A stretch of DNA of 33,289 nucleotides, taken from NCBI GenBank assembly GCA_016215115.1, contig JACRLN010000036.1:1-33289 (forward strand). Reading direction: 5' to 3'. The notes under the pieces were generated by a model that saw only the letters and a program-made list of their open reading frames with translations, was not told where the DNA came from and did not search any database. The stretch comes from Nitrospirota bacterium (GTDB lineage: Bacteria > Nitrospirota > Thermodesulfovibrionia > UBA6902). Numbering within the stretch: position 1 is the first letter of the stretch; each line of letters opens with the position of its first letter. The translations under genes and the position numbers were made by a program. Below, in pieces: positions 2,940 to 19,480 of the stretch.

Positions 2940-3467
2940 TTAAAACTCTATTCCCTTGCGTGCTTTTATACCAATAGCAGAAGGATGTTTAATCATGCGC
3001 ATCTCAGTTACATATTCGGCAATCGCAATTAATTCCTTTGGCGCCCCCCTGCCGGTGAAAACAAGTTCAACTCCTTCTGGCTGCTCCCTTAAAATTTTTT
3101 TAATATCTTCAGCGGTTGCATATTTATCTCGAAAAAGGTTGTTAAATTCATCCATTATAATAAGATCGTAGGTTCCGCTTTTTATCTGGTTTACCGAGAA
3201 AGAAATTGCTTTTTTAATATGACGCTTCAGCTCTGAACTTTTTACGGTCGGATCAAACAAAGGTGTTGTTTGACCTTTAAACTTTATCACTTTTATTCCG
3301 CTTTTTTTTGCAATCGTCCGTTCGCCTGCATCCTTTGTCCTGCTTTTAAGAAACTGCAGTATCAGGACTTTTTTACCGTGTCCAGCCGCCCTCATGGCAA
3401 GACCAAAGGCGGAAGTGGTTTTGCCTTTGCCGTCACCTGTGTATACATGTATAAGTCCTTTAGCCAT
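2940..3467 (-). CDS. cobO: cob(I)alamin adenosyltransferase (CobO/BtuR family)
   Basis: The protein transfers an adenosyl group from ATP to cob(I)alamin or its precursors. The P-loop YTGDGKGKTT lies at the N-terminus, followed by FLKSRTKDAGE, a Walker-B-like L-I-I-M-D-E-F-N motif, and V-F-T-G-R-G-A-P. This is the CobO/CobA/BtuR layout. I start it at the ATG at 3467 (MAKGLIHVYTG, 175 residues). The reading frame is open 25 codons further upstream to 3542, but that part is hydrophobic, unlike the family, and runs into repeat DNA. The rhodanese gene follows. The link to the corrinoid methyltransferase operon 4 kb away is thematic: both need cobamides. Confidence 0.92.
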   Translation of the reverse strand: MAKGLIHVYTGDGKGKTTSAFGLAMRAAGHGKKVLILQFLKSRTKDAGERTIAKKSGIKVIKFKGQTTPLFDPTVKSSELKRHIKKAISFSVNQIKSGTYDLIIMDEFNNLFRDKYATAEDIKKILREQPEGVELVFTGRGAPKELIAIAEYVTEMRMIKHPSAIGIKARKGIEF

Positions 3468-3528
3468 AAAAAATAAAAAGCAAGACATGAAATGTAAAAA
3501 ATTAATAATCCTAAAAAAAGCTTTCCAG

Positions 3529-3647
3529 CCACGAATTTCCACGAATTATCTCGAATAACAGGGAACTTGTGACTGTTCTATTTGTCACCATTTTGGTTAA
3601 AGACAAAATCTGTCTTCAAGCTTTATTTCATTCGTGTTCATTCGTGG
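3529..3647. repeat. ATTCGTGG-type intergenic inverted repeat
   Basis: The left arm carries CCACGAAtttCCACGAAT and the right arm TTCGTGttcaTTCGTGG, with AAGCTTT adjoining both arms, so the segment can fold on itself over about 119 bases. It fills the space between the response regulator and the adenosyltransferase gene (3468-3755). The rest of that gap shows nothing coding. Confidence 0.55.
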
Positions 3648-5171: not shown

Positions 5172-7133
5172 TCATCCTTTTTTTCCTCTTACCGGAAGTT
5201 TAATAATAAATGTTGTCCCTATCCCTTCCTTGCTTTCCACGTCTATGGTCCCGCCATGTTCCGACACTATCCTGTGACAAATCGAAAGACCGAGCCCTGT
5301 TCCTTCTCCAATGTCTTTTGTGCTGAAAAAAGGATCAAATATTTTATCAACGATGTCCCTGCTAATCCCCTTGCCGTTATCAGAGATTTTAATGTGAATG
5401 GAATCATGAAAACACGGGTCTTTCACGTAAGACGTGCTGATTACGATTTTCCCTTCTGTGTCTATAAAGTAAAGAGAGTTCATAATAATATTTATCAAAA
5501 GCTGTCTCATCGCGCCCGGGTCCGCGACTGTTTCCGGTATGTCCCTCTGCAGATCCAGTTCTATCCGGTTGTTGTGTGTCCTGGCCCCGTGTTTTACCAG
5601 CAGGGTCACCTCTTTTATGAGTCCGTTGATATCTATCTTCCTGTAGTTGCCGCTTGAGGTCCTTGCAAAATCAAGGAGACCTTTAAGCCTGTCTTTACAG
5701 CGAAAGATCTCATTATTAATGGTCTCCAGATATTCCGGAAAATCTTCAAACGCGCTTACGGCCTTGAGTTCCGGATCTCCTGCCCTGTCCATTAAGGCCT
5801 CGGAATAACCGGCAATTATTCCAAGCGGATTGTTGATTTCATGCACGACTCCGGCAACAAGCATTCCGAGAGAAGCCAGTTTGTCGGCCCGTACAAGCTG
5901 TTGCTCAAGTTTCTTCTGTTCCGTCACTTCTCTCAGATAGTTCACAACACCGTATATATTCCCGTCACTGTTGAGCAGGGGATATGTCCAGAAGTAATAG
6001 ATTCTCCCGTTTAATCCCTTTACTTCTTTAAATAATTTCTTCTTGCATTCGACCGACTCCGATGAAAGATTGGCAACATCAACTATTTGAAGTATATTAA
6101 AAATTTCTCCAGAACTTTTCTGTATCAAAGAGATCTCTGCCTTGCCTGATTTTTCTATTACAGCCTTGTTGACCCTGAGGACCTTCCCGTTCAAGTCCTC
6201 TATCCATACAATATCGGTAATGGCGTCAAATGTCTTTTCCCATTCCCTTTTTTCTTTTGATATCTCTTCAAACAGAAGTGCATTTTCAAGCGCAATTGAA
6301 AGGTGCTTCGCGATCGGAAGGAGTATCCCGAGGTCTTTTTCGGAGTATTTTTCAGGGGAGATACTGTCAAAATTGAGGGCCCCCAGGGGTCTGTCTTTAT
6401 AAAGTGGGACACTTATTGTTGAGCGGATCCCTTCCCCGAGCAATACGGAATCATATGAAAACGCTATCTCCTTTTGAAGGTCCCGGTTTATCCAGGGTTT
6501 CTGATTTATTGTAACCCATCCGGCGCTTGTTTTATCTGTCGGCGAGACAACGCCCTTTGTCAGCCGTGTCGGACGTTTTGTGTCAATTGCAAATATCTTC
6601 AGGACATTCTTGTGTTCCTCAAGAAGATTGATGCTCGCCCTGTCGAAATCTATCATCTTTTTGATTTCAGAAAATACAAGCCTGAAGATATGCCCTATAC
6701 TGAGACTTGAATTAATAACACTGCTTATCTCATTTATCAGCTCTATCTGTTTCACTTTTTTTCTGTGTCTTGCGCGCGTCTCGATCTTGATCAGCTCGCT
6801 GCGGTCTTCCACAACAACGATAAATCCGTCGGAATGCTTTACAAAAGATATCCTGGCAGGAAAAGTTTCTCTGTCTTTCCGAAGGCACCTTCCTTCCAGA
6901 ACTGAAGATTTCTTTTTAAGGGCGTCCCGCTGGATTGATGTGGATATCCTGATAATATCAAAAACAGACAGATTGATGATCTCATCTTTTTGAAAAAAAA
7001 GCCGGGGTTTCACTGTGGCGTTACAATCTGTGATCATGAAATCTCCATTTATGGAAAAGGCGGGAAGATGCAGACCATCAAGCACTTCCCACAGGAGCAT
7101 CGTATCCTGAAAGCTGCCAAGAATCCGCTTCAT
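5172..7133 (-). CDS. cytosolic sensor histidine kinase (PAS-GAF-PAS-HisKA-HATPase)
   Basis: The 653-residue protein has no membrane segment, so it should sense an internal signal. The order is a PAS domain (about 15-115), a GAF domain (about 135-290), a second PAS domain (about 300-405), and a dimerisation domain with phospho-acceptor H431 in GVVHEINNPLGI. The ATPase domain follows with N552, the G1 box DNGKG (585-589) and the G2 box GTGLGLS (611-617). The NNPLG H-box is typical of NtrB-like kinases that pair with sigma-54 activators, which matches the regulator downstream. The gene is divergent from the methyltransferase operon, with 275 bases between. The signal is not evident. The start at 7133 lacks a Shine-Dalgarno. 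Confidence 0.93.
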   Translation of the reverse strand: MKRILGSFQDTMLLWEVLDGLHLPAFSINGDFMITDCNATVKPRLFFQKDEIINLSVFDIIRISTSIQRDALKKKSSVLEGRCLRKDRETFPARISFVKHSDGFIVVVEDRSELIKIETRARHRKKVKQIELINEISSVINSSLSIGHIFRLVFSEIKKMIDFDRASINLLEEHKNVLKIFAIDTKRPTRLTKGVVSPTDKTSAGWVTINQKPWINRDLQKEIAFSYDSVLLGEGIRSTISVPLYKDRPLGALNFDSISPEKYSEKDLGILLPIAKHLSIALENALLFEEISKEKREWEKTFDAITDIVWIEDLNGKVLRVNKAVIEKSGKAEISLIQKSSGEIFNILQIVDVANLSSESVECKKKLFKEVKGLNGRIYYFWTYPLLNSDGNIYGVVNYLREVTEQKKLEQQLVRADKLASLGMLVAGVVHEINNPLGIIAGYSEALMDRAGDPELKAVSAFEDFPEYLETINNEIFRCKDRLKGLLDFARTSSGNYRKIDINGLIKEVTLLVKHGARTHNNRIELDLQRDIPETVADPGAMRQLLINIIMNSLYFIDTEGKIVISTSYVKDPCFHDSIHIKISDNGKGISRDIVDKIFDPFFSTKDIGEGTGLGLSICHRIVSEHGGTIDVESKEGIGTTFIIKLPVRGKKG

Positions 7134-7291: not shown

Positions 7292-7307
7292 TGGCATTGT
7301 AGTTGCA
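7292..7307 (+). promoter_or_regulatory. sigma-54 (-24/-12) promoter of the methyl-transfer operon
   Basis: TGGCATTGTAGTTGCA matches the RpoN consensus TGGCAC-N5-TTGCA with one mismatch. The invariant GG (7293-7294) and GC (7305-7306) are correctly separated by 10 bases. Transcription would start near 7318, about 90 bases before the first gene, whose ribosome binding site AAGGAGG is strong. It faces the operon, and a sigma-54 activator is encoded on the opposite side. Confidence 0.75.
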
Positions 7308-7408: not shown

Positions 7409-8437
7409 ATGACGCCGCGTGAAATAATTCTGAAGGCCTTTGAGCAGGGCAAACCAGAGCGTGTCCCGGTAACGCTGTTTGGCGCCGGGATGTGGAGTAT
7501 CAAGGAATACGGCACTACTTTTAAAGACTTATCTCTGGATGCAGGAAAAATGGCTGATATGCTTGTAAAGATGTCCGGTAAGCTTATCTGTGATATGGTT
7601 TACGCAGGATCGGGCTATAATAATTTCCATGCTGCAGCGCTTGGAGGCGGCATCAAATTCAGGGAGATCGGCGCCCCTGACCTCGAGGCACACATAGTTT
7701 CAACAGAAGAAGATCTCATGAAACTGGACCTGTCAAAAATAGATTCAAATGAAGTTATTAATACGGTGAAAAAGGCCTTGAGATTGACGAAATCAAAGAT
7801 CGGGAGTGAATATGCTGTAACTATGACGGCTTGGGGGCCCTACACACTTGGCGCAAGGCTTGTCGGCGAGGAGACGATGATGAAGGCCACATTCAAGAAG
7901 CCTGATTTTGTACATAAAATTGTAGATTTTGCAACTGACTTGCTCATTCATCTCTACGAACCGGTTGTTTCGGACGGGACTCTTGAAGTAATCAGTATTG
8001 CTGACCCCACCGCTTCCGGTGATTTGATATCGAAAAAACAATTTGAGACATTTGCATTGCCTTATCTTAAGAAATTCAATGACTGGGCCAGATCAAAAAA
8101 CGTTCATACCCTTGTACACATCTGCGGCAATACAACAGACAGACTGGATCTTTTCCCGCTTACCGGAGCAAGCTGCATCAGCCTTGATCACAAGACCGAT
8201 ATCGCGAAAGCAAAGGAAGTATTACATGGAAAAATGTGTTTTGGAGGCAACGTTGATCCCGTTAAAATAATGCTCCAGGGCACCGTCGGACAAGTGGAGG
8301 ACGCATGTAGACAGGTGATCCAGACCGCCGGCACAGACGGCGGTTTTGTTCTCATGCCCGGCTGCGACATACCGCCAACCGTTCCTTACGAAAACATACA
8401 GAAATTTATGCAGATTGCGAGGGAATGGAAACTTTAA
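7409..8437 (+). CDS. UroD-superfamily corrinoid methyltransferase (MtaA/CmuA/MtoB-like), first copy
   Basis: This 342-residue protein has the uroporphyrinogen-decarboxylase fold. The zinc-ligand pattern of the MtaA/MtbA/CmuA group is present: H237-x-C239 in VHICGN and C319 in MPGCDIP. These enzymes move methyl groups between a corrinoid protein and a thiol or another methyl carrier, with zinc activating the thiol. The sequence also carries GPYTLGARLVG and FGGNVDP, as in that group. It is the first gene after the sigma-54 promoter, with ribosome binding site AAAGGAGG at ideal spacing. The real substrate cannot be read from sequence. Both coenzyme M transfer and O-demethylation of methoxy compounds are known for relatives. 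It is unlikely to act in heme synthesis. Confidence 0.85.
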   Translation: MTPREIILKAFEQGKPERVPVTLFGAGMWSIKEYGTTFKDLSLDAGKMADMLVKMSGKLICDMVYAGSGYNNFHAAALGGGIKFREIGAPDLEAHIVSTEEDLMKLDLSKIDSNEVINTVKKALRLTKSKIGSEYAVTMTAWGPYTLGARLVGEETMMKATFKKPDFVHKIVDFATDLLIHLYEPVVSDGTLEVISIADPTASGDLISKKQFETFALPYLKKFNDWARSKNVHTLVHICGNTTDRLDLFPLTGASCISLDHKTDIAKAKEVLHGKMCFGGNVDPVKIMLQGTVGQVEDACRQVIQTAGTDGGFVLMPGCDIPPTVPYENIQKFMQIAREWKL

Positions 8438-8556
8438 TGAGAGGAGGTGAGAGAGTCCTTTAACGCTTTCGATGAACAAGTGTTTTACAGATTTGGCAGG
8501 ATAGTGAATATTTAACAGCCCGTGATCCCTGAAAATCCGGGCAGAGGGAGGCAACA

Positions 8557-9000
8557 ATGTCAGATAAAAAAATGACACTTGAGGAAGTAAATGCGTACAT
8601 GAAAGAAAAGTGCGGCTTCGTGCCGAGAATGTTCCAGATAATAAATACGGTTACGCCTGACCCAGGGAGGACCTTCGCTGATTTCTACGCAAGCATTTTC
8701 GGAGACGGTGCGCTGTCAAGGAAAGTCAAAGAACTTATGTTTATGTCCGGAGGTGTTGGTTACTGCTCCCCAAGATGCATAATCCATGTGATCCCTGCAA
8801 TCAATGCAGGCGCTACTACAGGTGAAATATTCGAGGCCGCTTCCGTCGGAATGATCCTCGCAGGTTTTGTCCCCGGCGGGCCCGGCATCCCCTATGCATT
8901 TGAGTATGCCCTTAAATGCCTGGACATCGAGGCCAAATTCAGAAAAGGTGAAAAGTGGGAATACCTGCCACAGACCAAGTTTGACCACGGCGTTTTTTAA
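8557..9000 (+). CDS. AhpD/carboxymuconolactone-decarboxylase-like protein, first copy
   Basis: The 147-residue protein looks like the CMD/AhpD fold. It has a helix ending in LSRKVKELMFM, then Y-C-S-P-R-C-I-I-H, then the A-G-A-T-T-G-E-I-F-E-A helix typical of the family. The usual redox motif is C-x2-C-x3-H. Here the second cysteine is shifted by one, giving C-x3-C-x2-H with the first Cys-to-His distance unchanged. Family members are thiol peroxidase partners or decarboxylases. A role in thiol redox or in handling a methylated substrate is inference from position between methyltransferase genes. The ribosome binding site GAGGGAGG is clear. The 119 bases before it hold no gene. Confidence 0.75.
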   Translation: MSDKKMTLEEVNAYMKEKCGFVPRMFQIINTVTPDPGRTFADFYASIFGDGALSRKVKELMFMSGGVGYCSPRCIIHVIPAINAGATTGEIFEAASVGMILAGFVPGGPGIPYAFEYALKCLDIEAKFRKGEKWEYLPQTKFDHGVF

Positions 9001-9008
9001 GAATAACT

Positions 9009-9068
9009 GTAGGGGTAGGTTTTCGCAGGGGCAGGTTTCGTAAGGGCGGGTTTGAAACCCGCCCCTAC
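9009..9068. repeat. GTAGGGGCGGGTTT-type intergenic repeat inside the operon
   Basis: Three tandem degenerate units of the type (g)TAGGGG-AGGTTTcg end in a perfect hairpin, GGGCGGGTTTGAAACCCGCCC. It fills the 80-base gap before the MtrH-like gene. It could form a stable RNA stem within the transcript, separating expression of the parts or protecting mRNA ends. Confidence 0.6.
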
Positions 9069-9080
9069 TGAAGGAGCTTT

Positions 9081-10028
9081 ATGTTTGTTTTTTCGAGAGA
9101 ACAAAGAATTTTTAATATAAGCGGCATAAAAATAGGCGGACAACCGGGAGAAAACCCGCCTCTCCTGATTGCATCCATGTTCCATAACAAGGACCGGATA
9201 CTTCGGGACAGGAAAGGAGATTTTGACCGGCAGAAGGCAAAGGAATACATAAAAAGACAGGAAGATCTTTCAGTTTCTACAGGAATACCTTCGATGGCAG
9301 CTATGGTTGCAAATACACATGAAGAGGCTCAGATTTATATAGATTTCTATCTTGAGACAACGGACATGCCCTTTGGGATCGATATGTGGGTTGCCGAAAA
9401 GAGGGCAAAAGCAACTGAATACGTCGCAAAATTGGGGGTTCAGGACAAATTCCTGTACAACAGTATCACCCCATGGGATAAGGATATAAAGGGACAGGTT
9501 AACAGATTAAAAGACCTTGGAATAAAACACGTTGTCGTGCAGGCATTTAATGATAAAGACCAGTCGCCTTCAGGGCGGCTGACATCGCTTGAAAACATCC
9601 TTTCGCAGGGGGCTGACAGCTTTGAGACTATCATAGTTGATACATCTGTCATGAACCTTCCTGCTACATCTTTTTCGCTGATAGCAAACAGGATCATAAA
9701 AGAAAAAACCGGCCTTCCCTGCGGTGGCGCATATTCAAACGGCACCCATATGTGGCAGGCTTCAAAAGATATCTGGGGCCTCGACGGTTTCAGGACCATG
9801 GATGCGGTCGCACAGGGAATGGCATCAGTTCTCTGGAGCGATTTTAATTTTTACGGGCCTATTGTTACCGCACCGAGGATCTTGCCCGCGGTAGCGACCG
9901 CACACATCCTCCTTTCCATGCTTGTATATGATGAAACCAAAGCGGTCCCCGAAAATCCCTCACTGCCGATAAGGAAACATTTTTCAGACTTTCTTGGAAA
10001 ACTGTTTTCAGGGGAAGCGAGGAAATAA
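9081..10028 (+). CDS. MtrH-like methyl-pterin:corrinoid methyltransferase
   Basis: The 315-residue protein matches tetrahydromethanopterin S-methyltransferase subunit H. It has the N-terminal F-x-x-E-Q-R-I-F-N-I-S-G-I-K-I-G-G-Q-P-G-E signature, then DRKGDFDRQKA and YIKRQEDLSVSTGIP, with a TIM-barrel body. In methanogens MtrH transfers methyl from tetrahydromethanopterin to the corrinoid of MtrA. Relatives (for example MtoA of methoxydotrophic archaea) do the same with soluble corrinoid proteins. In a bacterium the pterin is presumably tetrahydrofolate, which fits the metF gene at 23.8 kb. No other Mtr subunit is nearby, so the partner should be the soluble corrinoid protein of this operon. 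Ribosome binding site GAAGGAG. Confidence 0.9.
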   Translation: MFVFSREQRIFNISGIKIGGQPGENPPLLIASMFHNKDRILRDRKGDFDRQKAKEYIKRQEDLSVSTGIPSMAAMVANTHEEAQIYIDFYLETTDMPFGIDMWVAEKRAKATEYVAKLGVQDKFLYNSITPWDKDIKGQVNRLKDLGIKHVVVQAFNDKDQSPSGRLTSLENILSQGADSFETIIVDTSVMNLPATSFSLIANRIIKEKTGLPCGGAYSNGTHMWQASKDIWGLDGFRTMDAVAQGMASVLWSDFNFYGPIVTAPRILPAVATAHILLSMLVYDETKAVPENPSLPIRKHFSDFLGKLFSGEARK

Positions 10029-10050
10029 TGTTTATGATAAAGGAGAATAT

Positions 10051-11073
10051 ATGAGTGAGACTATAACGCCGAGAGAACGGGTTTTAAAACTCTTTGCAGG
10101 GGAAAAGATTGACAGGCCTCCGTGTTTCAGCGGTATGGGAAATGTGACGGTAGAAGGGCTCAAAAAATACGGGTACAAATTTGCCGCCCTCCATTCCGAT
10201 GCGAAAATGCTGGCTGACGCCGCTGCTTCCACTTACAAACTCTTCGGATTTGAATGCGGCGTAATCCCCTTTGACCTTTGCGTTGAAGCAGAAGCGCTCG
10301 GATGTGAAATAAATGTATATGCACATCTTGATGATATCGTTTATCCCACGATCAAAAGGAAACTCATCCACAATGAGGATGAAATGGATATAACCGTTCC
10401 GTCAGACCTTACATCCCGGGGAAGGATACCGCTGATGCAAGAAGCCATCAGTATTATCAAGAAAGATATCGGCAATGAGGTTGCAATCGGCACGTATGTT
10501 CTCGGTCCGTTTACTCTTGCCGGACAGATCATGGAACTCAATGATCTGCTGAAGCTGTCTTTTAAAAAACCTGACAAGGTGGGAAAGTTACTCGATCTCC
10601 TTGCCGATGCTATTATCATGATCGCAAAAGAATATGAAAAGACGGGAATAGATTACATAACCGTAAGAGAGATGGGGGCCACATCGGATGTCCTGAGCCC
10701 GAGGGTTTTTAAAAACCTTATCCAGCCTTATCTCAAAAAGATATTTTCGGAATTGAAAGTCAATAACGTCCTTCATATCTGCGGGAAAACGAATGACATC
10801 GCGGGCTTCATGGTTGAGTCAGGGGCAAAGGCCATCAGTGTGGACCAGAAAAATGATGTCGCCGAAACACGGAAGAAGATAGGCAGTGAAGCCCTGCTGT
10901 TCGGCAATTATGACCCATACAATGTCCTCGTGTCGGGAACTACTTCCCTCGTAAAAGAGACTATGAGGAAATGTATTGACAATGGCGTAAGCGCTGTATG
11001 GCCCGGATGCGATATATGGCCTACAGTACCACCTGAAAATATTAAAGCCATGATGGAAGAGGTAATAAAATAG
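10051..11073 (+). CDS. UroD-superfamily methylcobamide:thiol methyltransferase (MtaA-like), second copy
   Basis: I start this 340-residue protein at ATG 10051 (MSETITPRER), which follows AAAGGAGAATAT. The frame is open upstream to 9994 but overlaps the preceding gene without a ribosome binding site. Zinc-ligand positions are H242-x-C244 (LHICGKT) and C320 (WPGCDIWPTVPPENIK). The region LLFGNYDPY...SGTTSLVKE closely follows the MtaA/MtbA pattern of methylcobamide:coenzyme M methyltransferases. It is clearly a distant paralogue of the protein at 7409. One of the two may face the methyl donor and the other the thiol acceptor. No experiment-independent way exists to tell which. Confidence 0.87.
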   Translation: MSETITPRERVLKLFAGEKIDRPPCFSGMGNVTVEGLKKYGYKFAALHSDAKMLADAAASTYKLFGFECGVIPFDLCVEAEALGCEINVYAHLDDIVYPTIKRKLIHNEDEMDITVPSDLTSRGRIPLMQEAISIIKKDIGNEVAIGTYVLGPFTLAGQIMELNDLLKLSFKKPDKVGKLLDLLADAIIMIAKEYEKTGIDYITVREMGATSDVLSPRVFKNLIQPYLKKIFSELKVNNVLHICGKTNDIAGFMVESGAKAISVDQKNDVAETRKKIGSEALLFGNYDPYNVLVSGTTSLVKETMRKCIDNGVSAVWPGCDIWPTVPPENIKAMMEEVIK

Positions 11074-11086
11074 AGGAGGTAACTTT

Positions 11087-11776
11087 ATGGCCACAGATGA
11101 AAAAAGACAGGAGATTCTCGACAAGTTAAGGAATGCGGTGATACAGTACGATGAAGATACGGCAAAAGAGGGAGCCCAGGAAGCACTTGATAACGGACTT
11201 GAGGGAAACGACGCTATATTCAATGGGCTTGTAAGCGGTATGGAGGAAGTGGGAAGGCTGTTTGAATCCCAGGAGTATTTCGTCCCCGAACTGCTCATGT
11301 GCGCCGACGCCCTTTACGCGGGACTGGACATATTGAAACCCCACGTAAAAAAAATGGACCTTGGTGTAAGAGGATCGGTTGTTATCGGAACTGTTGAAGG
11401 GGATGTTCACGACATCGGGAAAAATATAGTGAAGATGATGTTCGATGTAGCCGGCTTCACTGTGTATGACCTTGGCAGGGACGTCCCGCTCGATAAATTC
11501 GTGGAAGAGCAGATCAAGACAGATTCTGACCTTGTCTGTCTCTCTGCCATGATGACAACGACAATGGTCGGCATGAAAAAAGTAATTGATAATCTGAAGG
11601 CAAAAAACCCCAATATAAAGATCATGATCGGCGGCGCGCCGGTATCCCAGGACATTGCCGATAAGTGGGGCGCGGACGGTTACGCCAAAGATGCGAACAA
11701 TGCCCTTAAAGATGCAATTAATATGATCAGTTCATTGAAAAAGATGAAAGAAGAGGCAGAGAGCAAAGGAGGTTAG
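11087..11776 (+). CDS. methyltransferase corrinoid protein (MtaC/MtbC/MtoC type)
   Basis: The 229-residue protein has an N-terminal helical cap domain (about 1-92) with EVGRLFESQEYFVPELLMCADAL-type features, including the E-x-G-x-x-F and Y-F-V-P-E motifs. A Rossmann cobalamin-binding domain follows, in which D106-x-H108-x2-G111 (VEGDVHDIGKN) supplies the lower axial His ligand. The motifs S-A-M-M-T-T-T and I-G-G-A-P-V complete the binding site. It would be methylated and demethylated by the neighbouring methyltransferases as the central methyl carrier in the cytoplasm. Ribosome binding site GAGGAGG lies 13 bases after the previous stop. The length and motifs are normal for the family. Confidence 0.95.
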   Translation: MATDEKRQEILDKLRNAVIQYDEDTAKEGAQEALDNGLEGNDAIFNGLVSGMEEVGRLFESQEYFVPELLMCADALYAGLDILKPHVKKMDLGVRGSVVIGTVEGDVHDIGKNIVKMMFDVAGFTVYDLGRDVPLDKFVEEQIKTDSDLVCLSAMMTTTMVGMKKVIDNLKAKNPNIKIMIGGAPVSQDIADKWGADGYAKDANNALKDAINMISSLKKMKEEAESKGG

Positions 11777-12439
11777 ATGAATGATATTTTGCAAAAGGAA
11801 ATCCTCGGGTCAGGCGCTGATATTGTAGGTTTTGCTGATCTGAAAGGTTTTCTTGATGCAGATGTCGCCTACCTCCACAAGGCCATATCATTTGGTGTAT
11901 GCAAAAATTTAAATGAGAAGACCGTTCAATTACTGACCGCGCTTCAGAAAAAGGCTGTAAAAATTCTCAAAAAAGAGGGCTATAAATATCTCTGTATTCC
12001 GCCTGACTCTGACAGAACAATAAATACATTCGTATCTAAACTGTACCCGCTCTTTACGCACAAGAGCGCAGCCACATCCGCCGGGATAGGCTGGATAGGA
12101 AGAAATGGTCTGCTTATAAATCCAATCCACGGTCCGCGCCTTTCACTTGCGACTGTGCTTACAAATGCCCCTCTAAAAAACGGCACCCCTATCGAGGCCT
12201 GCCTTTGCGGTGACTGCAGGATGTGTATCGACCACTGTCCGTCCGGGGCGATTACCGGAAATGACTGGTCCAGAAGAAGACCGTTTGTTGAACTTGTCAG
12301 ATTGAGCAATTGCAATACTCATAAAAAGAAAAGTAAAGCTGTAAACGGCAAACCCAATTGCGGGCTATGCATCACCATCTGCCCCTATGGCAGGAAAATT
12401 AAAAAGGAAAAAAATGAAGGTTTTTTTGTAAATATATAA
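11777..12439 (+). CDS. short QueG-like (epoxyqueuosine reductase-related) Fe-S protein
   Basis: The start ATG directly follows the corrinoid protein stop, so translation is probably coupled (ribosome binding site AAAGGAGG). Of its 220 residues, the middle reads S-A-G-I-G-W-I-G-R-N-G-L-L-I-N-P-x-H-G-P, as in QueG. A two-[4Fe-4S] ferredoxin module follows: C-G-D-C-R-M-C-I-D-H-C-P and C-G-L-C-I-T-I-C-P-Y-G. QueG and the related reductive dehalogenases bind cobalamin and reduce it through these clusters. This protein is much shorter than QueG and lacks its C-terminal part, so tRNA modification is unlikely. By context it may pass electrons to the corrinoid protein. That role is inferred, not shown. 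Confidence 0.75.
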   Translation: MNDILQKEILGSGADIVGFADLKGFLDADVAYLHKAISFGVCKNLNEKTVQLLTALQKKAVKILKKEGYKYLCIPPDSDRTINTFVSKLYPLFTHKSAATSAGIGWIGRNGLLINPIHGPRLSLATVLTNAPLKNGTPIEACLCGDCRMCIDHCPSGAITGNDWSRRRPFVELVRLSNCNTHKKKSKAVNGKPNCGLCITICPYGRKIKKEKNEGFFVNI

Positions 12440-12474
12440 CCTTCTGTCAATATAGAAAGGGACATATTTCTAAT

Positions 12475-12611
12475 TAGAGCCTGTTTATAAATTCAACATT
12501 AAGACGTCATTCCCGTGAAAACGGGAATCCAGTAATTTTAGCAAGTCCTGGATTCCCGCTCAAAAAACTGCGGGAATGACGTCTTAATGTTGAATTTATA
12601 CACAGATTCTA
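12475..12611. repeat. MITE-like inverted repeat, copy 2, inside the operon
   Basis: The two ends pair almost perfectly over about 40 bases. The left arm runs TAGAGCCTGTTTATAAATTC and on through AACATTAAGACGTCATTCCCG; the right arm is the reverse complement with four differences in the outer dozen bases. An inner pair GGGAATCCAG/CTGGATTCCCG gives a second stem. It separates the QueG-like gene from the activator gene and would form a very stable RNA hairpin in the transcript. Confidence 0.85.
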
Positions 12612-12628
12612 ATTAAGGAGATTAACAG

Positions 12629-14602
12629 ATGAAAAAACATAAAGTGATCTTTCAGCCCTCAGGAAGGAGGGGCGAAGTGGAAGATGGGAAGACACTCCTT
12701 GAAGCTGCGCAGGCTCTGGGTGTTGATATTGAAGGTCTTTGCGGGAGCAAAAAGGTATGTGGAAAGTGCAAGGTCAGAATAGAAGAAGGCTATTTTGAAA
12801 AAGATAATATTGAGTCCGGAATGTACCATCTTTCTCTTATTACTGAAGCTGAAAAGAAGCACATAAAACCTGATGACGGTCCCGGGATACGCCTCGCCTG
12901 CACAGCAGAAGTGCATGGAGATGTAAAGGTTTTCGTGCCGGAACGTTCCAGGGCAGGCAAACAGGTCGTTCGCAAGGCGGCAAAGGAGCTATACATAGCC
13001 CTGGACCCCGCAGTGAAAAAGTATAATATCGAACTGGTCCCTCCAACACTTCATGATATGACAACAGGCGATAACGAAAGGATACTGAAGTGTTTGGAAG
13101 ATAACTATGGTCTGAAGAATCTCACCATCGATTATTTTGTTCTGAAAGAGCTTCAGGATGTTTTGAGAAAAGGTGAATGGACGGCAACTGTTACGGTATG
13201 GATGGACAGTGATATAATAAAAGTGGAGCCCGGATTTGTAGAAACGTGTTACGGGCTTGCAGTTGACATCGGCACCACAACATGTGTCGGTTATTTGACC
13301 GATCTGATTACAGGCAAGGTGGTAAATACGGAATCAATGATGAACCCGCAGGTCCCGTATGGCGAGGATGTCATGTCACGCATTACGTATGCGATGACCA
13401 ATCCGGCAGGACTCGAAACCATGCAAAAGGCCATCATTGACGGACTGAATGAGATTATTGAGAGAGCTGTTTCTGAAATTATTAAAGACGGTCCTAATCC
13501 CGGTTTTTCAATTGATGACCTTACTATAGTCTTCAACACTGCAATGCATCACATATTCCTCGGCTTTGATCCCGTGTACATAGGCCGTTCACCTTTCATA
13601 CCGGCAGTGCAGAATTCCATGAATGTTAAGGCACGTGATATCGGCTTAAAGATAAATCCGTCAGCCTATATCCATGTTCTGCCGATTGAAGCCGGCTTTG
13701 TCGGCGCTGATAACGTTGGAGTACTGATAGCTGAAGAGCAGTACAATCAGGATGAAATGGTGCTCGTCATCGATATAGGCACAAACGGTGAACTCCTTCT
13801 CGGAAACAGGAACAAGGTCTGCTCAACTTCCTGTGCAACAGGACCTGCATTCGAGGGTGCACAGATAAAGTTCGGCATGAGGGCGGCTCCGGGAGCTATC
13901 GAGGTAGTTCAGATCGACCCTGATACCAGGGAGCCCAGGTACAAGGTGATTGGAAAAGCGGACTGGCATTCACATCTGGAAAAAATAAATGCTAAAGGTA
14001 TATGCGGTTCAGGCATTATCGAGGTCGTTGCCGAGATGTTCAAGGCCGGTATAATAGACAAGTCGGGCAAGTTTGTCATGGATCTCAATACCCCCAGAGT
14101 AAGAAAAGGGGCTGACGGTAAACCAGAGTATGTCCTCGCATGGGCTGAAGAGACATCCATAGGCACCGACATTACAGTAACCCAGGGAGATGTAAGGGCG
14201 CTTCAACTGGCCAAAGGTGCGCTTTATGCAGGCGCCAAACTGATGATGAAGAGACTGGATGTTTCGGCAATTGACAGAGTTGTGCTTGCGGGCGCTTTCG
14301 GAAGCCATATAAGCCGTGAAGCTTCATTGACTCTGGGCATGTTCCCGGACTGTCCGATCGATAAAGTGTATGCGGTCGGAAATGCAGCAGGTGATGGCGC
14401 AAGGATGGCGCTCCTTAATAAGGATAAACGAATTGAAGCCGATTACAGGGCACGGTGGGTGGAGTTCATCGAGATCGCAACTGACCCGGCCTTTGAAAAA
14501 GAGTTTATGCAGGCAATGCATATACCTCACATGAAAGACAAATTCCCTAACTTGAAAGAGTTATTGAGCAAATCCGGTTGCAAGGTGGAGATAAAGGGAT
14601 GA
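12629..14602 (+). CDS. RACE protein: reductive activator of corrinoid methyltransferase (DUF4445/ASKHA)
   Basis: The 657-residue protein has an N-terminal plant-type [2Fe-2S] ferredoxin domain (C38, C44, C47, C91). A linker is followed by a large ASKHA-ATPase-like part beginning near residue 209 with AVDIGTTTCVGYL, then VIDIGTNGEL, EGAQIKFGMRA and LAGAFGSHI. RACE proteins use ATP to drive reduction of inactive Co(II) corrinoid to Co(I). This fits the corrinoid protein encoded just upstream; MtoD, MtvD and similar activators belong to the same group. The ribosome binding site TTAAGGAG is well placed. The gene overlaps the next by four bases (ATGA). Confidence 0.95.
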   Translation: MKKHKVIFQPSGRRGEVEDGKTLLEAAQALGVDIEGLCGSKKVCGKCKVRIEEGYFEKDNIESGMYHLSLITEAEKKHIKPDDGPGIRLACTAEVHGDVKVFVPERSRAGKQVVRKAAKELYIALDPAVKKYNIELVPPTLHDMTTGDNERILKCLEDNYGLKNLTIDYFVLKELQDVLRKGEWTATVTVWMDSDIIKVEPGFVETCYGLAVDIGTTTCVGYLTDLITGKVVNTESMMNPQVPYGEDVMSRITYAMTNPAGLETMQKAIIDGLNEIIERAVSEIIKDGPNPGFSIDDLTIVFNTAMHHIFLGFDPVYIGRSPFIPAVQNSMNVKARDIGLKINPSAYIHVLPIEAGFVGADNVGVLIAEEQYNQDEMVLVIDIGTNGELLLGNRNKVCSTSCATGPAFEGAQIKFGMRAAPGAIEVVQIDPDTREPRYKVIGKADWHSHLEKINAKGICGSGIIEVVAEMFKAGIIDKSGKFVMDLNTPRVRKGADGKPEYVLAWAEETSIGTDITVTQGDVRALQLAKGALYAGAKLMMKRLDVSAIDRVVLAGAFGSHISREASLTLGMFPDCPIDKVYAVGNAAGDGARMALLNKDKRIEADYRARWVEFIEIATDPAFEKEFMQAMHIPHMKDKFPNLKELLSKSGCKVEIKG

Positions 14603-14922
14603 CAAAGGTTATCGTAAATTCAGGCATCTGCGGTTTCTCGGTTACAATTGCAGCCGAAAAAGAGACCGGCAGAAAAATCCGTTTGTCTTTCGATACTGAA
14701 TGCGAGATGGTGTTAAAAATGCTCGAAGACATTTCACAGGTTGATACAATGTATGTTTTTTTGAATCATCTTGCTAATCCTGTTTACAGGTCTGCTGCAA
14801 AACATATAAAGCACGCGGCCTGTCCTGTGATGAGTGGGATCTTGAAAGCGATAGAGGTTGAGGCAGGGCTCGCTTTGCCCCGTGATGTACAGATCGAATT
14901 TATTAAAGATCAAGGGTTGTGA
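14599..14922 (+). CDS. small conserved protein of corrinoid methyltransferase operons (DUF6951-like)
   Basis: I start this 107-residue protein at ATG 14599, which overlaps the activator's stop as ATGA. The frame is open 21 bases further upstream but that start has no support. It begins MTKVIVNSGICGF and carries two further cysteines, at D-T-E-C-E-M and H-A-A-C-P-V-M-S-G-I. I associate this pattern with a small uncharacterised family, probably DUF6951, found beside corrinoid systems; that link is from memory and should be checked. The conserved cysteines could bind metal or a thiol. No membrane segment is present. Confidence 0.65.
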   Translation: MTKVIVNSGICGFSVTIAAEKETGRKIRLSFDTECEMVLKMLEDISQVDTMYVFLNHLANPVYRSAAKHIKHAACPVMSGILKAIEVEAGLALPRDVQIEFIKDQGL

Positions 14923-14932
14923 ATATTTCTAT

Positions 14933-15634
14933 ATGACAAGAGAATATTTAGGGATAACACTGATGGCCGTAACTTACCTGTGTTACGCGATCTTTTTATG
15001 GAGAATAATATGGCGTATTTTCCTCTTGCTGAAAATCCCCGGCGACCGGAACAAAGAATCTCTGCCCGTTTCCCAAATTGCACCGATGACGATACTGAGG
15101 GGAGTAAGGGATGTCCTCTTATTAACAAGACTTTTTCGGGTCAATAAGCTGTTATGGATAGGAGAGTGGATATTCCACTGGACTTTTCTTCTCGTAGTGA
15201 TGAGGCATTTGAAATATTTCCTTTTCCCTATCCCTGCTTTTGTATCAGGCTTTGATTCGTTAGGATTATTTGCGGGATACGTATTTTACCTGTCACTAAT
15301 TTATATCCTGATAGTAAAGTACAGGATAGAAAAGAGCAGATATTTTTCCACATATAATTTTTTTCTTCTCATCCTACTTATAATGATCGGCCTGACAGGC
15401 ATATTGATGAGAAATATCATGCGTCCTGACATCGTTGAGATAAAATATTTCGTTCTCAATTTATTAACATTTAATCCGGTATCCATACCGCAAAGCATGC
15501 TGTTCAATATTCACTTCAACATGACGCTGGTTTTTTTAGTTTCCCTGCCCGCTCACATCTTTGCCGCGCCTTATACAATATTGCATGCGCGTCAGTGTGA
15601 GGACAGGTTTGACCTTTTGATACATGAAAAATAA
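14933..15634 (+). CDS. NarI/HdrE/DsrM-like b-type cytochrome membrane subunit
   Basis: From the chosen start ATG 14933 the protein has 233 residues and about five membrane helices. Histidines suited to heme b ligation lie in W-I-F-H-W-T and M-R-H-L-K-Y, and in H-F-N-M-T near the last helix with P-A-H-I-F-A following. This is the nitrate-reductase-gamma (NarI) fold used in HdrE and DsrM to link cytoplasmic Fe-S subunits to menaquinone. The reading frame is open 75 bases further upstream inside the previous gene, but that stretch is hydrophilic and unlike the family. No clear Shine-Dalgarno. It overlaps the HdrD-like gene by 11 bases, so they probably form one complex. Confidence 0.8.
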   Translation: MTREYLGITLMAVTYLCYAIFLWRIIWRIFLLLKIPGDRNKESLPVSQIAPMTILRGVRDVLLLTRLFRVNKLLWIGEWIFHWTFLLVVMRHLKYFLFPIPAFVSGFDSLGLFAGYVFYLSLIYILIVKYRIEKSRYFSTYNFFLLILLIMIGLTGILMRNIMRPDIVEIKYFVLNLLTFNPVSIPQSMLFNIHFNMTLVFLVSLPAHIFAAPYTILHARQCEDRFDLLIHEK

Positions 15635-16826
15635 AAATTCTTTTACATCGTGTCTGTCACAGAGACAGCTTCTTGAACTCGATGCCTGCACACAATGCGG
15701 TGAATGCCTTAAAAATTGTCCTGTGCAGGATGTGACGGGGAATCCTAATATTTCACCGCCGGAAAAGATCCGCATGTTCAAAGAATTCATAAAAGCCACC
15801 GATGGTCTTAAACCCATGTTGTTCGGCAAAGGGGAGATTGATCGCAAGCTGCTTGAAGATTTTACCAGGGCTGTTTATGAATGCACGATCTGCGGCGCCT
15901 GCGGCAGGAGTTGTTCTGTCGGCATTATTACGGAGAGGCTTTGGCCCATGCTCAGGAAAGAAATGGTACGACGGGGACTCGGACCGCTCGGTGCGCAGGC
16001 GAATATTCCCGGGGCAATAGAGCGTACGGGAAATCCTTATGAAAAACCGCCTGCGGAGAGATATCTTCCATGGTTTCCGGAAGGAGTCAAAGTGGCTGAG
16101 AAAGCGGATATAGCATATTATGCAGGGTGCACCGGGGCCTATCTGGCACAGCCGATGGTAAAGGGTGATGTGCGTGTACTGTCTGCCATCGGAGAAGAAT
16201 TTACAATGCTGCCGCCTGAAGATGAGGTGTGCTGTGGATTCCCGTTATTTATAACAGGGCAGCATGATATGCTTAAGGATTTAGTCATCAGGCTTGTTAA
16301 TGCGTATCATGCAAAAGGAGTGAAGACACTATTATGCTCCTGCCCCTGCTGCGTGAACATAATGGTAAAGGACTGGCCCCTGTTCTATGGTAAGGAATTG
16401 CCTTTCAGGATAAGACATATAACTCAATTTGTTGAGGATGCGCTTAAAAAAGGCAGGCTGCGTTTCAGAAAAGAACTTCATGAAAGGATAATTTACCATG
16501 ATCCATGTTATTTAAGCCGTGGAGTTGGGATAATTGCAGAGCCGCGGTACATACTTTCTCAAATACCCGGAGTTCAGCTTTTGGAATTTGAGAGACACGG
16601 GCTTGATTCACGGTGCTGCGGAGCGGGAGGCGCTGCGCGGAAAGTATTTAATGAAAATGCGATAGCGATGGGCAGGCTGACGATCGATGAAGCAGTCGCA
16701 AAGAAAACGGATAAACTTGTTTTAAATTGCCCTGCATGCTATGAGAAGGTTAACGAGGCCCTGCAGGGTCATGATAAGCAGATAACGATCGTAGATCTGA
16801 TGGAGTTGGTAGCGGAATTGATATAA
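15624..16826 (+). CDS. HdrD/DsrK-like Fe-S protein with two CCG domains
   Basis: The 400-residue protein has two ferredoxin-type [4Fe-4S] motifs: C22-x2-C25-x2-C28-x3-C32 and C87-x2-C90-x2-C93-x3-C97. Two full CCG domains follow, C169...C203-C204...C240-x2-C243 and C295...C331-C332...C369-x2-C372. CCG domains in HdrB/HdrD hold the non-cubane cluster that splits the CoM-CoB disulfide. In DsrK and related proteins they act on other disulfides. With the membrane subunit overlapping upstream it forms an HdrDE/DsrMK-like unit that would couple a thiol/disulfide pair, or the corrinoid activation pathway, to quinone. It is the last gene of the operon. Confidence 0.88.
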   Translation: MKNKNSFTSCLSQRQLLELDACTQCGECLKNCPVQDVTGNPNISPPEKIRMFKEFIKATDGLKPMLFGKGEIDRKLLEDFTRAVYECTICGACGRSCSVGIITERLWPMLRKEMVRRGLGPLGAQANIPGAIERTGNPYEKPPAERYLPWFPEGVKVAEKADIAYYAGCTGAYLAQPMVKGDVRVLSAIGEEFTMLPPEDEVCCGFPLFITGQHDMLKDLVIRLVNAYHAKGVKTLLCSCPCCVNIMVKDWPLFYGKELPFRIRHITQFVEDALKKGRLRFRKELHERIIYHDPCYLSRGVGIIAEPRYILSQIPGVQLLEFERHGLDSRCCGAGGAARKVFNENAIAMGRLTIDEAVAKKTDKLVLNCPACYEKVNEALQGHDKQITIVDLMELVAELI

Positions 16827-16855
16827 AACTGTTTCATTGGTTCAGTTGGTTATAT

Positions 16856-17017
16856 TACTAATAAGGTCAAAAGTAAGAATACATAAATGTCATTCCCGCA
16901 GTCTGTTGAGCGGGAATCCAGACAGATAAAGAACTGGATGCCCGATTAAAGACTTCGGGCATGACGACTTACTTATGACCGCATTAGTATGTATCCTTAC
17001 TTATAGCCGTCTTAGTA
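16856..17017. repeat. MITE-like element, copy 3, with nested outer repeats
   Basis: A unit TACTAATAAGGTCAAAAGTAAG (starting near 16857) occurs inverted twice on the right side, at about 16965-16990 and 16991-17017. The core has GTCATTCCCG...CGGGAATCC and GGGCATGAC stems. Outside, GTTTCATTGGTTCAGTTGGTT (16830-16851) is loosely mirrored by AAAACCAATAAAACTAATAGG (about 17037-17061). The element lacks the GTTTATAAA ends of the other copies. The entire 294-base gap between the operon and the cysteate synthase gene is repeat DNA, and I see no clear promoter in it. Confidence 0.65.
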
Positions 17018-17120
17018 GTTACATTGTTTAACAAATAAAACCAATAAAACTAATAGGACTAATAAAACGGATCTATACTTGCTCCAGGTTTATGAATAAA
17101 ATGAGCTGAGACCTTTTTTT

Positions 17121-18374
17121 ATGAGCCATTACACTTTAAAATGCAGAAAATGCGGAACGGTCCTGAAGGAAGCACACTGTGCCTTTTGCGAGCACTGCAA
17201 GGATGCATTACTCTTAACCGATTACAAAGAGACTTCTTTTACGGAAAAAAATTCAGGAGAGATCTGGAGATTCAACTGGCTGCCGGTCCATGATCCGAAA
17301 TTTCATCAACCCGGTCCTGTTGTTTTTAGATCGAAAGGCCTTTCTGAAAAACTTGGGCTTGAGAACCTTTTTATAGCCTTTAACGGCTACTGGCCTGAAA
17401 TCGGCGCTAAAATAACAACCTGTACCTTCAAGGAGTTTGAAGCTGCTGTGGTCCTGGAAAACGCACGCTCAAACGGCATTGAAGGGTTGGTTGTGGCATC
17501 CGCAGGAAATACTGCGAGGGCCTTTGCCCATCTATCGACTGTATCAGGATTTCCTGTGATAATCGTGGTCCCGAGTATGTGCCTTTTTGAGATGTGGTAT
17601 CTTGAGGCGTCTTTAAGAATCCCTACTCTTGTTCTTGAGGACGGAGATTATTCAAACGCAATTGATCTGGCAAAGAGGATCGCGCTGATCCACGGTTATC
17701 CTTTTGAAGGTGGTGTCAAGAACATAGCCAAGAGAGACGGCCTCGGTATTGTCCTGCTTGAGGCGGTATCGAAAATAGGGAGACTGCCGGACCACTATTT
17801 TCAGGCCGTTGGAAGCGGCGCCGGGGCTATCGGGGTATGGGAGATGTCAGAGAGATTTCTCAGGGACGGAAGATATGGCTCCAGACTTCCGGCGCTTCAT
17901 CTCGCACAGAACCTTCCCTTTGCGCCGATGGTAAAGGCATGGAACAATAACAGCAGAGAGCTTTCCTCTGAAGATCTGAACCCAGAATTAATAGAGCAGA
18001 TAACCACGAGGGTCCTTTCAAGCCGCTATCCGGCGTATTCAATTGTGGGAGGTGTTTTTGACGCCCTTCACGCCACTGGAGGGAAAATGTATGGGATAGA
18101 AAACAATGAAGTGCTTGCTGACATGGAGTTGTTCGAAAAAACAGAAGGAATAGATATTGTGCCTGCTGCTGGTGTTGCTGTTGCCGGACTCAGAAAGGCA
18201 GTTGAGAACGGCCATGTAGATAAAAGTGATACTATTTTATTAAATATCACCGGCGGCGGGGAAAAACGGTTAAAAAAAGATATGAAGACATACATGGTCG
18301 AACCTGTGTTTGTATCCGGGAAGATCACAGACAAAGAAATAGAGGAACTGTGCAAGCGCCTGAAAGTGAACTGA
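17121..18374 (+). CDS. cysteate synthase (PLP-dependent, threonine-synthase fold)
   Basis: The 417-residue enzyme would make L-cysteate from O-phosphoserine and sulfite, the first step of coenzyme M synthesis in Methanosarcinales. An N-terminal zinc-ribbon-like part (C8-x2-C11, C20-x2-C23-x2-C26) precedes W-L-P-V and G-P-V-V-F-R-S-K-G-L. The PLP lysine is K104 in the motif NGYWPEIGAKITTCTFKE. The phosphate-binding loop is SAGNTARAF, and GSGAGAIGVWE binds the PLP phosphate. The N-G-Y-W-P-E...T-F-K-E pattern separates it from threonine synthase, which has N-P-T-G-S-F-K-D. It is translationally coupled to sulfopyruvate decarboxylase, which strongly supports the call. The ribosome binding site is poor. 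Confidence 0.88.
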   Translation: MSHYTLKCRKCGTVLKEAHCAFCEHCKDALLLTDYKETSFTEKNSGEIWRFNWLPVHDPKFHQPGPVVFRSKGLSEKLGLENLFIAFNGYWPEIGAKITTCTFKEFEAAVVLENARSNGIEGLVVASAGNTARAFAHLSTVSGFPVIIVVPSMCLFEMWYLEASLRIPTLVLEDGDYSNAIDLAKRIALIHGYPFEGGVKNIAKRDGLGIVLLEAVSKIGRLPDHYFQAVGSGAGAIGVWEMSERFLRDGRYGSRLPALHLAQNLPFAPMVKAWNNNSRELSSEDLNPELIEQITTRVLSSRYPAYSIVGGVFDALHATGGKMYGIENNEVLADMELFEKTEGIDIVPAAGVAVAGLRKAVENGHVDKSDTILLNITGGGEKRLKKDMKTYMVEPVFVSGKITDKEIEELCKRLKVN

Positions 18375-19480
18375 TCCACATTTTAAAAAAGAACAAGGTT
18401 GATTATATATCTACCCTGCCTTGCGAAAAGATAAGGGTACTCCTCCAAAGGATAACCGGAGAATTTTTTCATGTCCCTTTGACGAGGGAAGAAGAAGGGG
18501 TCGGCATCAGCGCAGGCATTGCGCTCGCTGATAAGAGGCCGGCAATGTTCGTACAGAGTTCCGGCATTGGGAACATGATAAATGCGCTCCTGTCCTTAAC
18601 AGGTTTTTACGAACTGCCTCTTGCTGTCTTTGTAAGCCGGCGCGGTATTTACAAGGAGAAAATAGCGGCGCAATTACCGATGGGGCAGCATCTCCCCGGA
18701 ATTCTGAAAGGAGCCGGGATACCATACTCGGTCATCAGTTCAAGAGATGATCTCGGTCTGATAGAAAAAAAACTTCCCGGCGTATACAGAAGCAGCAAAA
18801 TACATGCATTCCTTCTGAGCCCTGCGATCTTTGAGGGTACGTGTGATAGCGGCATTCTGAAATCCACTTCGCATCCAATCACCGGAAGCTCAAAAGGATA
18901 TCAATCTAAAAAAATGACCCCGCAGTTTCCCCGCTTTGAAATCCTGAAGATCATCGCACCCTATCTCGATGCCAAAGTTGTTGTCTGTAATCTGGGCTTC
19001 CCTTCAAAAGAACTTTTCAACATTAAGCATCAGCAGTCGAACTTCTACATGCTCGGAAGCATGGGCTTGGCTACGCCGATCGGTCTTGGTATCAGCCTGG
19101 CATCCGACAAAGAGGTTATCGTTATAGACGGCGACGGCAGCCTCCTGATGAATCCCGGCAGTCTTGCAACGACAGCGCATTTTGCCCCGCCGAATTTGAC
19201 CATCCTTGCGGTAGATAACAGCTCCTACGGCTCAACAGGCGACCAGCCGACACTGACCGGTTCATGTGTTGACCTCGGACTTGTGGCAAAGGGTTTCGGC
19301 ATTCAAAATATAATAAAAGCGTCAACAGGGAAACAATTGGTGGATGCATTAAAGAAACCTCATAAAGGCCTGCGTTTTATTCATGCATTGGCTGTACCGG
19401 GCAATAAAGATGTGCCTGCTATCCCGCTGCATCATCTTGAGGTGAAGAAGCAGGTGATGGGATGGATAAGCAGAAACTAA
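18350..19480 (+). CDS. comDE: sulfopyruvate decarboxylase, ComD-ComE fusion (TPP enzyme)
   Basis: The 376-residue protein starts at GTG 18350 after AGAGGAA and overlaps the cysteate synthase by 25 bases. The N-terminal half is ComD-like: TREEEGVGISAG, the Q-S-S-G-I-G-N-M-I-N-A motif, and QLPMGQHLPG. The C-terminal half is ComE-like: N-F-Y-M-L-G-S-M-G-L-A-T-P-I-G-L-G and the TPP/Mg motif from GDGS (about residue 258) to D-N-S-S-Y-G-S-T-G (about 288). It would decarboxylate sulfopyruvate to sulfoacetaldehyde. In many methanogens the two halves are separate subunits. A cysteate aminotransferase and the last thiolation step are not encoded here. Acetolactate synthase is much longer and does not fit. 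Confidence 0.92.
   Translation: MQAPESELIHILKKNKVDYISTLPCEKIRVLLQRITGEFFHVPLTREEEGVGISAGIALADKRPAMFVQSSGIGNMINALLSLTGFYELPLAVFVSRRGIYKEKIAAQLPMGQHLPGILKGAGIPYSVISSRDDLGLIEKKLPGVYRSSKIHAFLLSPAIFEGTCDSGILKSTSHPITGSSKGYQSKKMTPQFPRFEILKIIAPYLDAKVVVCNLGFPSKELFNIKHQQSNFYMLGSMGLATPIGLGISLASDKEVIVIDGDGSLLMNPGSLATTAHFAPPNLTILAVDNSSYGSTGDQPTLTGSCVDLGLVAKGFGIQNIIKASTGKQLVDALKKPHKGLRFIHALAVPGNKDVPAIPLHHLEVKKQVMGWISRN

Follow-up and report, generated by a model that had tools for sequence, protein, structure and literature searches.

A conserved operon in Thermodesulfovibrionia that probably encodes a coenzyme M-dependent methyl-transfer module

Introduction

Coenzyme M (CoM) is known from archaeal methane and alkane metabolism and, by a different route, from bacterial alkene and epoxide metabolism (PMC12068725). 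Three CoM pathways are known, two archaeal and one bacterial (Chadwick et al., PMC12068725). The type 2 pathway of Methanosarcina (MA3297-MA3299) uses cysteate synthase, aspartate aminotransferase, ComDE and ComF/MMP16 (PMC12068725, PMC12713407); cs and comDE, which lead to CoM, lie next to each other in M. acetivorans (PMC12068725). Xanthobacter autotrophicus Py2, a bacterium for which CoM synthesis has been proposed, has a pathway that starts from phosphoenolpyruvate with a ComA homologue and belongs to epoxide metabolism. Here we describe an operon that joins cysteate synthase and ComDE to a set of corrinoid methyl-transfer proteins in a bacterium. It occupies positions 7409-19480 of a 33,289-bp stretch of DNA (contig JACRLN010000036.1; the window) from a Nitrospirota genome of the class Thermodesulfovibrionia (2.8 Mb, 99.4% complete). 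The gene system is real, conserved and unusual. Judged from its genes, it is probably a CoM-dependent methyl-transfer module in a non-methanogenic bacterium.

The locus resembles several described systems. As in Methanosarcina, cysteate synthase is followed by a fused ComDE; here, however, the genes are bacterial, lie in a corrinoid methyl-transfer operon, and occur without MMP16/COG1900 or methyl-CoM reductase (MCR). In contrast to Xanthobacter, there is no ComA, the early steps are those of cysteate synthase and ComDE, and the use would be methyl transfer. The MtaABC/MtbA-type systems of methylotrophic methanogens, which transfer methyl groups to CoM, likewise encode an MtaA-type zinc enzyme, a cognate corrinoid protein and an activase in one operon. 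The Nitrospirota operon differs in having two MtaA-like proteins and an MtrH-type enzyme directed to tetrahydrofolate (THF); no MtaB was seen in it, and there is no methanogenesis. With the archaeal Mtr complex (methyl-tetrahydromethanopterin:CoM methyltransferase) it shares the MtrH family and the proposed net reaction, between a C1-pterin and CoM by way of a corrinoid. The counterpart here would be soluble (MtrH, corrinoid protein and MtaA) and would use THF; none of the membrane subunits MtrA-G, including those of the sodium pump, were seen in the operon, the genome not having been searched for them. Bacterial O-demethylases (MtvABC, Vdm/Odm, MtoABCD) also combine a UroD enzyme, a corrinoid protein, an MtrH-type second methyltransferase and an activase, whereas here one UroD-family protein, MtaA2, falls in the MtaA branch by curated model and the operon is stably linked to genes for sulfonate synthesis or, in a subset of genomes, for a sulfonate importer. 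The combination of cysteate synthase and ComDE with corrinoid methyl transfer in a bacterium is not among the three known CoM pathways. Among open-licence papers, none was found that describes cysteate synthase or CoM synthesis in Nitrospirota, which does not by itself prove novelty.

Results and Discussion

Cysteate synthase and ComDE follow a methyl-transfer operon

The genes of the operon are co-directional (+ strand) and encode, in order, MtaA1, an AhpD-like protein, MtrH, MtaA2, a corrinoid protein, a QueG-like Fe-S protein, a corrinoid activase, DUF6951, HdrE, HdrD, cysteate synthase and ComDE. Families were assigned with Pfam and NCBIfam models and their curated cut-offs. These models bore out a preliminary description of the DNA, which had reported two MtaA-like proteins, an MtrH-like protein, a corrinoid protein, the activase RACE and an HdrDE/DsrMK-like pair at the same reading frames, and added the AhpD/CMD-like (8557-9000), QueG-like (11777-12439) and DUF6951 (14599-14922) genes.

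The cysteate synthase gene (17121-18374, +) scored 475.8 bits with TIGR03844 (cut-off 324.9). The fused sulfopyruvate decarboxylase gene comDE (18350-19480, +) scored 169.9 with TIGR03845 (cut-off 147.95) and 223.3 with TIGR03846 (cut-off 221.5). Their overlap and their place directly after the operon, both described earlier, hold with both frames over curated cut-offs. Among solved structures the synthase matched 9k3c, the only solved cysteate synthase found, at E = 5.6e-90, versus 7e-16 for the best threonine synthase. For both proteins the curated identity is a better fit than the alternative, threonine synthase for the one and phosphonopyruvate decarboxylase for the other.

The two gene sets co-occur across the class

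We surveyed 200 genomes of Thermodesulfovibrionia (G numbers below; loci have L numbers). Cysteate synthase was present in 60, ComDE in 60, DUF6951 in 64 and orthologues of MtaA2 in 67. MtaA2 was found in 59/60 of the genomes with cysteate synthase (Fisher p = 1e-40), and at the genus level the comparison was 38/38 versus 4/70 (p = 5e-25); shared descent is not fully corrected for in these tests, and presence varies within many families. The lone genome with cysteate synthase and no MtaA2 is 83% complete and has the gene on a 3.3 kb contig. All 60 genomes with ComDE have MtaA2. Of ten genomes in the window's own genus, four have both genes, five have neither, and one (G031) has MtaA2 on a short, truncated contig. 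In G031 and G182, where no cysteate synthase was found, the operon is cut by a contig end, and neither was counted as a loss. Cysteate synthase carriers among close relatives are Nitrospirota metagenome-assembled genomes throughout, several of them labelled Thermodesulfovibrionia.

Gene order was compared at 48 operon loci, mostly picked for having both genes on one contig, a set that measures order and not frequency. Order was kept in 48/48, with ten core genes in 38. Window neighbours of the operon such as SecA did not accompany it: SecA, MetF (at least 45% identity) and glutamine cyclotransferase were beside it in none of the 48. The linkage is far beyond chance. Conserved linkage in relatives and co-occurrence of the two gene sets were among the tests proposed in the preliminary description, and both supported it. 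A wider contig scan was built on class-specific patterns and says nothing about absence of the operon from other phyla.

A sulfonate importer accompanies loss of the synthesis genes

We found that some operons are associated with an SsuABC-type importer whose binding protein, SsuA, scores over the cut-off of the aliphatic sulfonate family (TIGR01728, 196.3 bits over 163.5), with permease and ATPase genes adjoining. This operon-type SsuA occurs in only six genomes of the class, all with MtaA2. It is present in all four genomes in which the locus is intact and cysteate synthase is missing: G009, G151 and G172 have neither cysteate synthase nor ComDE, and G195 retains a cysteate synthase remnant (codons 1-34 and 363-415) adjoining an intact comDE. 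Both synthesis and uptake genes are present in G165, where comDE is ~20 kb downstream, and in G168. Among operon genomes, SsuA was found in 4/6 of those missing cysteate synthase versus 2/61 of those with it (p = 3e-4); the other two of the six are contig-truncated. The importer genes lie inside the operon in L104, L106, L107 and L109 and directly after RACE on the short contig L193 (G168). The presence of an importer where the synthesis genes are missing points to a need of the methyl-transfer core for a sulfonate, most simply CoM, and is the strongest evidence for such a need. In Methanosarcina, sulfonate transporters and cs/comDE reportedly rise together under disturbed CoM turnover (PMC12713407).

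The window also contains an orphan SsuA-like binding protein (24819-25757, -; 97 bits, below 163.5). It is distinct from the operon type and is found near the comDE end in about ten relatives.

MtaA proteins, MtrH and the corrinoid protein

MtaA2 (10051-11073, +; the reading frame opens at 9994 and its first ATG is at 10051) resembles methylcobalamin:CoM methyltransferase, with 278.6 bits to NF004889 (cut-off 244) and 262.4 to TIGR01463 (cut-off 235.4). It matched the solved MtaA of M. mazei (4ay7) at E = 8e-50, and its zinc ligands (His-x-Cys...Cys) were kept in 49/49 orthologues. MtaA1 (7409-8437, +; PF01208, 204 bits) is a UroD/MtaA-like zinc methyltransferase below the same subfamily cut-offs (TIGR01463, 182 versus 235; NF004889, 176 versus 244). 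Its best solved match is also 4ay7 (E = 2e-26), and its zinc set, H237-x-C239...C319, was kept in 52/52. Aligned to 4ay7, the zinc ligands of both proteins occupy the positions of those in M. mazei MtaA. The earlier reading of both as MtaA-like is thus right at the level of the family, and at the level of the subfamily for MtaA2 and not MtaA1. A second thiol or thioether is the probable partner of MtaA1.

The MtrH-family protein (9081-10028, +; PF02007, 180 bits; NF002142, 329 over 287) is a putative methylcorrinoid:THF methyltransferase. Its solved relatives include such an enzyme, 6sj8, and bacterial MtrH relatives have this activity (PMC8630106). Its score with the mtrH equivalog model (160.6, below 271.4) indicates that, by model, it is not the MtrH of an Mtr complex. 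The MtaC/MtbC-like cognate corrinoid protein (11087-11776, +) has PF02310 and PF02607, a conserved GDVHDxGKN, and 216.6 bits to TIGR02370 (cut-off 215.3). The RACE/AcsV-like corrinoid reductive activase (12629-14602, +) has PF14574 (RACo, 321 bits); AcsV is its best NCBIfam match, below cut-off. folD is within 9/48 operon loci and a metF homologue is beside three, which fits a link to THF. The preliminary description had placed methyl-THF, with MtrH and MetF, at one end of the transfer; MtrH agrees with this, and the neighbouring metF is not conserved beside the operon.

Similar classes of components occur in acetogens and in Methermicoccus (PMC8630106, PMC13222342), and bacterial MtrH-type enzymes transfer to THF. 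The operon might then be an ordinary O-demethylation or methylotrophy operon of the MtvABC/MtoABCD type (UroD methyltransferases, corrinoid protein, MtrH-type enzyme and activase) that feeds THF, with the sulfonate genes unrelated to it. We consider this very unlikely: unrelated genes would not hold their order in 48/48 loci or co-occur in 59/60 genomes, the sulfonate importer tracks the loss of the synthesis genes, MtaA is the nearest match of MtaA2, and CdmB, a solved O-demethylase relative, matches MtaA1 only weakly.

A second corrinoid set was examined in four genomes (L114, L115, L117 and L118), with a UroD substrate-type enzyme and an MtaA2-like protein that passes NF004889. No MtrH was seen in these sets; at L117 the contig covers the MtaA-like half alone. 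Such MtaA2-like paralogues occur in 12 genomes, all of which carry the main operon; in the four of the 12 that were examined, the MtaA-type protein is the sole recognised methyl acceptor enzyme. The second cluster (L114-L118) also encodes a CobW-type GTPase, a MoxR-like ATPase, a protein of ~900 amino acids and a metal-binding-like protein, beside the MtaA-like protein, UroD enzyme, corrinoid protein and activase.

A proposed relay between tetrahydrofolate and CoM

We suggest the following scheme. Cysteate synthase would make cysteate from phosphoserine and sulfite, a general aminotransferase would convert it to sulfopyruvate, and ComDE would decarboxylate this to sulfoacetaldehyde. In Methanosarcina, a general aspartate aminotransferase suffices for cysteate transamination (PMC12713407). 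A further thiolation step, by sulfide chemistry or a sulfur carrier, would yield CoM. MtaA2 would move methyl groups between the corrinoid protein and the CoM thiol, and MtrH between the same corrinoid protein and THF, with RACE keeping the corrinoid cobalt active. A corrinoid protein common to MtaA2 and MtrH implies a relay from THF through corrinoid to CoM, and the module may do in soluble form what the Mtr complex does in archaea, linking methyl-THF to or from methyl-CoM. Methyl flow may run in either direction; on general grounds, transfer toward CoM would be favoured. We infer from the genes that the product is CoM, as well as each reaction, its direction and the role of HdrDE. The full proposal, in which this soluble MtaA-corrinoid-MtrH relay swaps methyl groups between THF and CoM, CoM is a true one-carbon carrier in non-methanogenic bacteria, and a methanogen-type CoM pathway ends in a new thiolation, is one that we slightly favour.

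If the proposal is true, methyl carriage in bacterial C1 metabolism would be a third biological use of CoM, present in dozens of Nitrospirota genomes. A soluble Mtr counterpart would also bear on the spread of CoM chemistry between archaea and bacteria. Two questions become testable: how sulfoacetaldehyde is thiolated without ComF, and whether any bacterium produces methyl-CoM.

Several observations weigh against CoM as the product and methyl acceptor. The CoM synthase ComF/MMP16 (COG1900, PF01837) had no match in the window's own genome and was absent from 199/200 genomes of the class, while the control was found in M. acetivorans. The known pathway therefore ends at sulfoacetaldehyde. By the strict equivalog for methanogen MtaA (NF040654), MtaA2 scores far too low (254 versus 400), and bacterial UroD-family methyltransferases are often substrate enzymes rather than CoM enzymes (PMC13222342, PMC8630106). 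MCR was not found in the own genome, and no consumer of methyl-CoM is known here. The importer is inside the operon in three of the four genomes lacking an intact cysteate synthase and on another contig in G151, and its family does not settle the ligand, many sulfonates being accepted. DUF6951 is kept in genomes without the synthesis genes, which speaks against a role in CoM making only.

The missing CoM synthase family, a pathway established only as far as sulfoacetaldehyde and the breadth of the transporter family would also suit a different product. The operon might make isethionate, taurine or another sulfonate thiol from sulfoacetaldehyde, and that compound, or a methylated version of it, might be the substrate of the methyltransferases. 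We regard this as unlikely. MtaA2 exceeds the cut-off of the CoM methyltransferase subfamily, and both MtaA proteins have a thiol-activating zinc site, which suits a thiol and not an alcohol or amine. The absence of MMP16 is tolerable in a likely sulfidogen: in M. acetivorans, MMP16 is dispensable once sulfide is present, and its loss is thus masked (PMC12068725). A sulfidogen might by the same token do without it, and we assume from class membership that the host makes sulfide. The idea that CoM is made here and used with the methyl module, put forward in the preliminary description, stands for the cysteate synthase/ComDE route and its tie to the MtaA/MtrH/corrinoid module (linkage, co-occurrence and importer); the final thiolation enzyme that it proposed to look for did not turn up.

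Other candidates were set aside. ComF by homology was ruled out by the lack of PF01837, a Xanthobacter-type start by the absence of ComA (PF02679) from the own genome, and methane formation by the absence of MCR. Dependence on acetyl-CoA synthase was uninformative, since AcsB is widespread (179/200 genomes), whether the operon is present or not; the own genome had no detectable acetyl-CoA synthase beta subunit (PF03598). A search for sulfoacetaldehyde degradation by Xsc gave no match, and neither did its positive control. A ComA-like phosphosulfolactate synthase occurs in 13 genomes of the class; in three or four of the five loci read (for example L200, L201 and L203) it lies among prp-like propionate genes and not with CoM genes. 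G172, which has the methyl-transfer operon and neither cysteate synthase nor ComDE, is the sole genome of the 200 with MMP16/COG1900 proteins (contig 95; L182 and L183); one exceeds the TIGR03287 cut-off, and they adjoin an HdrD-like protein. In one relative, cysteate synthase and comDE are separated by a DsrE-family gene (L072, 12480-12896).

HdrDE and DUF6951

The HdrE/DsrM/NarI-like membrane cytochrome b subunit (14933-15634, +) has four conserved haem-ligand histidines and matches DsrM best (69.8 bits, below cut-off). The HdrD-like Fe-S subunit (15624-16826, +) has two PF02754 domains and two intact CCG motifs with conserved cysteines. The best curated names for the pair are TfrB, DsrK and DsrM, every one below cut-off. 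HdrDE is gone from G198 (L102), which has intact synthesis genes, and from G151 and G172; fragments remain in G009. Loci without the pair include L105/L106, which retain the methyl-transfer core. The earlier suggestion that Hdr/NarI handles a disulfide is a guess, because several operons lack the pair, L102 with its intact synthesis genes among them. Three loci (L089, L091 and L092) have an extra HdrE/HdrD-like pair inserted in the operon.

These genes bear on another possibility, that the sulfonate is mainly a redox thiol whose disulfide HdrDE couples to the quinone pool, with methyl transfer a side use or a means of thiol recycling. HdrD keeps both CCG motifs and is encoded directly upstream of cysteate synthase, and CoM can be an antioxidant in Methanosarcina (PMC12713407). 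The absence of HdrDE from an operon with synthesis genes and from others with the methyl-transfer core makes this highly improbable.

DUF6951 (14599-14922, +; PF22263, 111 bits) is a candidate sulfur or metal carrier. All 64 genomes that encode it have MtaA2, and among control genomes it was found in M. acetivorans only. It has an invariant Cys3His set (C10, C34, H71 and C74, numbered from Thr2). An AF2 model (pLDDT 93) resembles the sulfur carriers SufE, IscU and SufU, a weak fold match: the best Foldseek hit was SufE (E = 0.19) and VIA-align gave Z 6.5 for ISCU. By sequence there was no signal of homology to IscU. From the model, DUF6951 is a weak candidate for the sulfur carrier of CoM thiolation. 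Its retention where synthesis is lost suggests that its role may lie instead in Fe-S or activase functions.

Other operon members and surroundings

The AhpD/CMD-like small protein (8557-9000, +; PF02627, 24.9 bits over 23) is a highly conserved member, found in 45/48 loci; the other three are cut by contig ends. The QueG/reductive-dehalogenase-like double [4Fe-4S] protein (11777-12439, +; PF13484) is found in 46/48 loci and is absent from L064 and L104.

A sigma-54-type promoter-like site, TGGCATTGTAGTTGCA (7292-7307, +), precedes the first gene by 102 bp and has one mismatch to TGGCACN5TTGCW. The window has 19 such matches (one mismatch), which is not above chance. Across loci, 8/52 had a site of at least 9/11 ahead of their first UroD-type gene, versus 0.6 in base shuffles; four of the 52 are loci of the second system. 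A divergent sigma-54 response regulator (3756-5096, -) and histidine kinase (5172-7133, -), identified with Pfam, are possible regulators; similar genes occur in 13/48 and 9/48 operon loci, respectively. No cobalamin riboswitch was found with Rfam, whose only match was a tRNA. Near the operon, a rhodanese-domain protein (2576-2926, -) adjoins a cobalamin adenosyltransferase (2940-3542) and is a possible sulfur-transfer partner.

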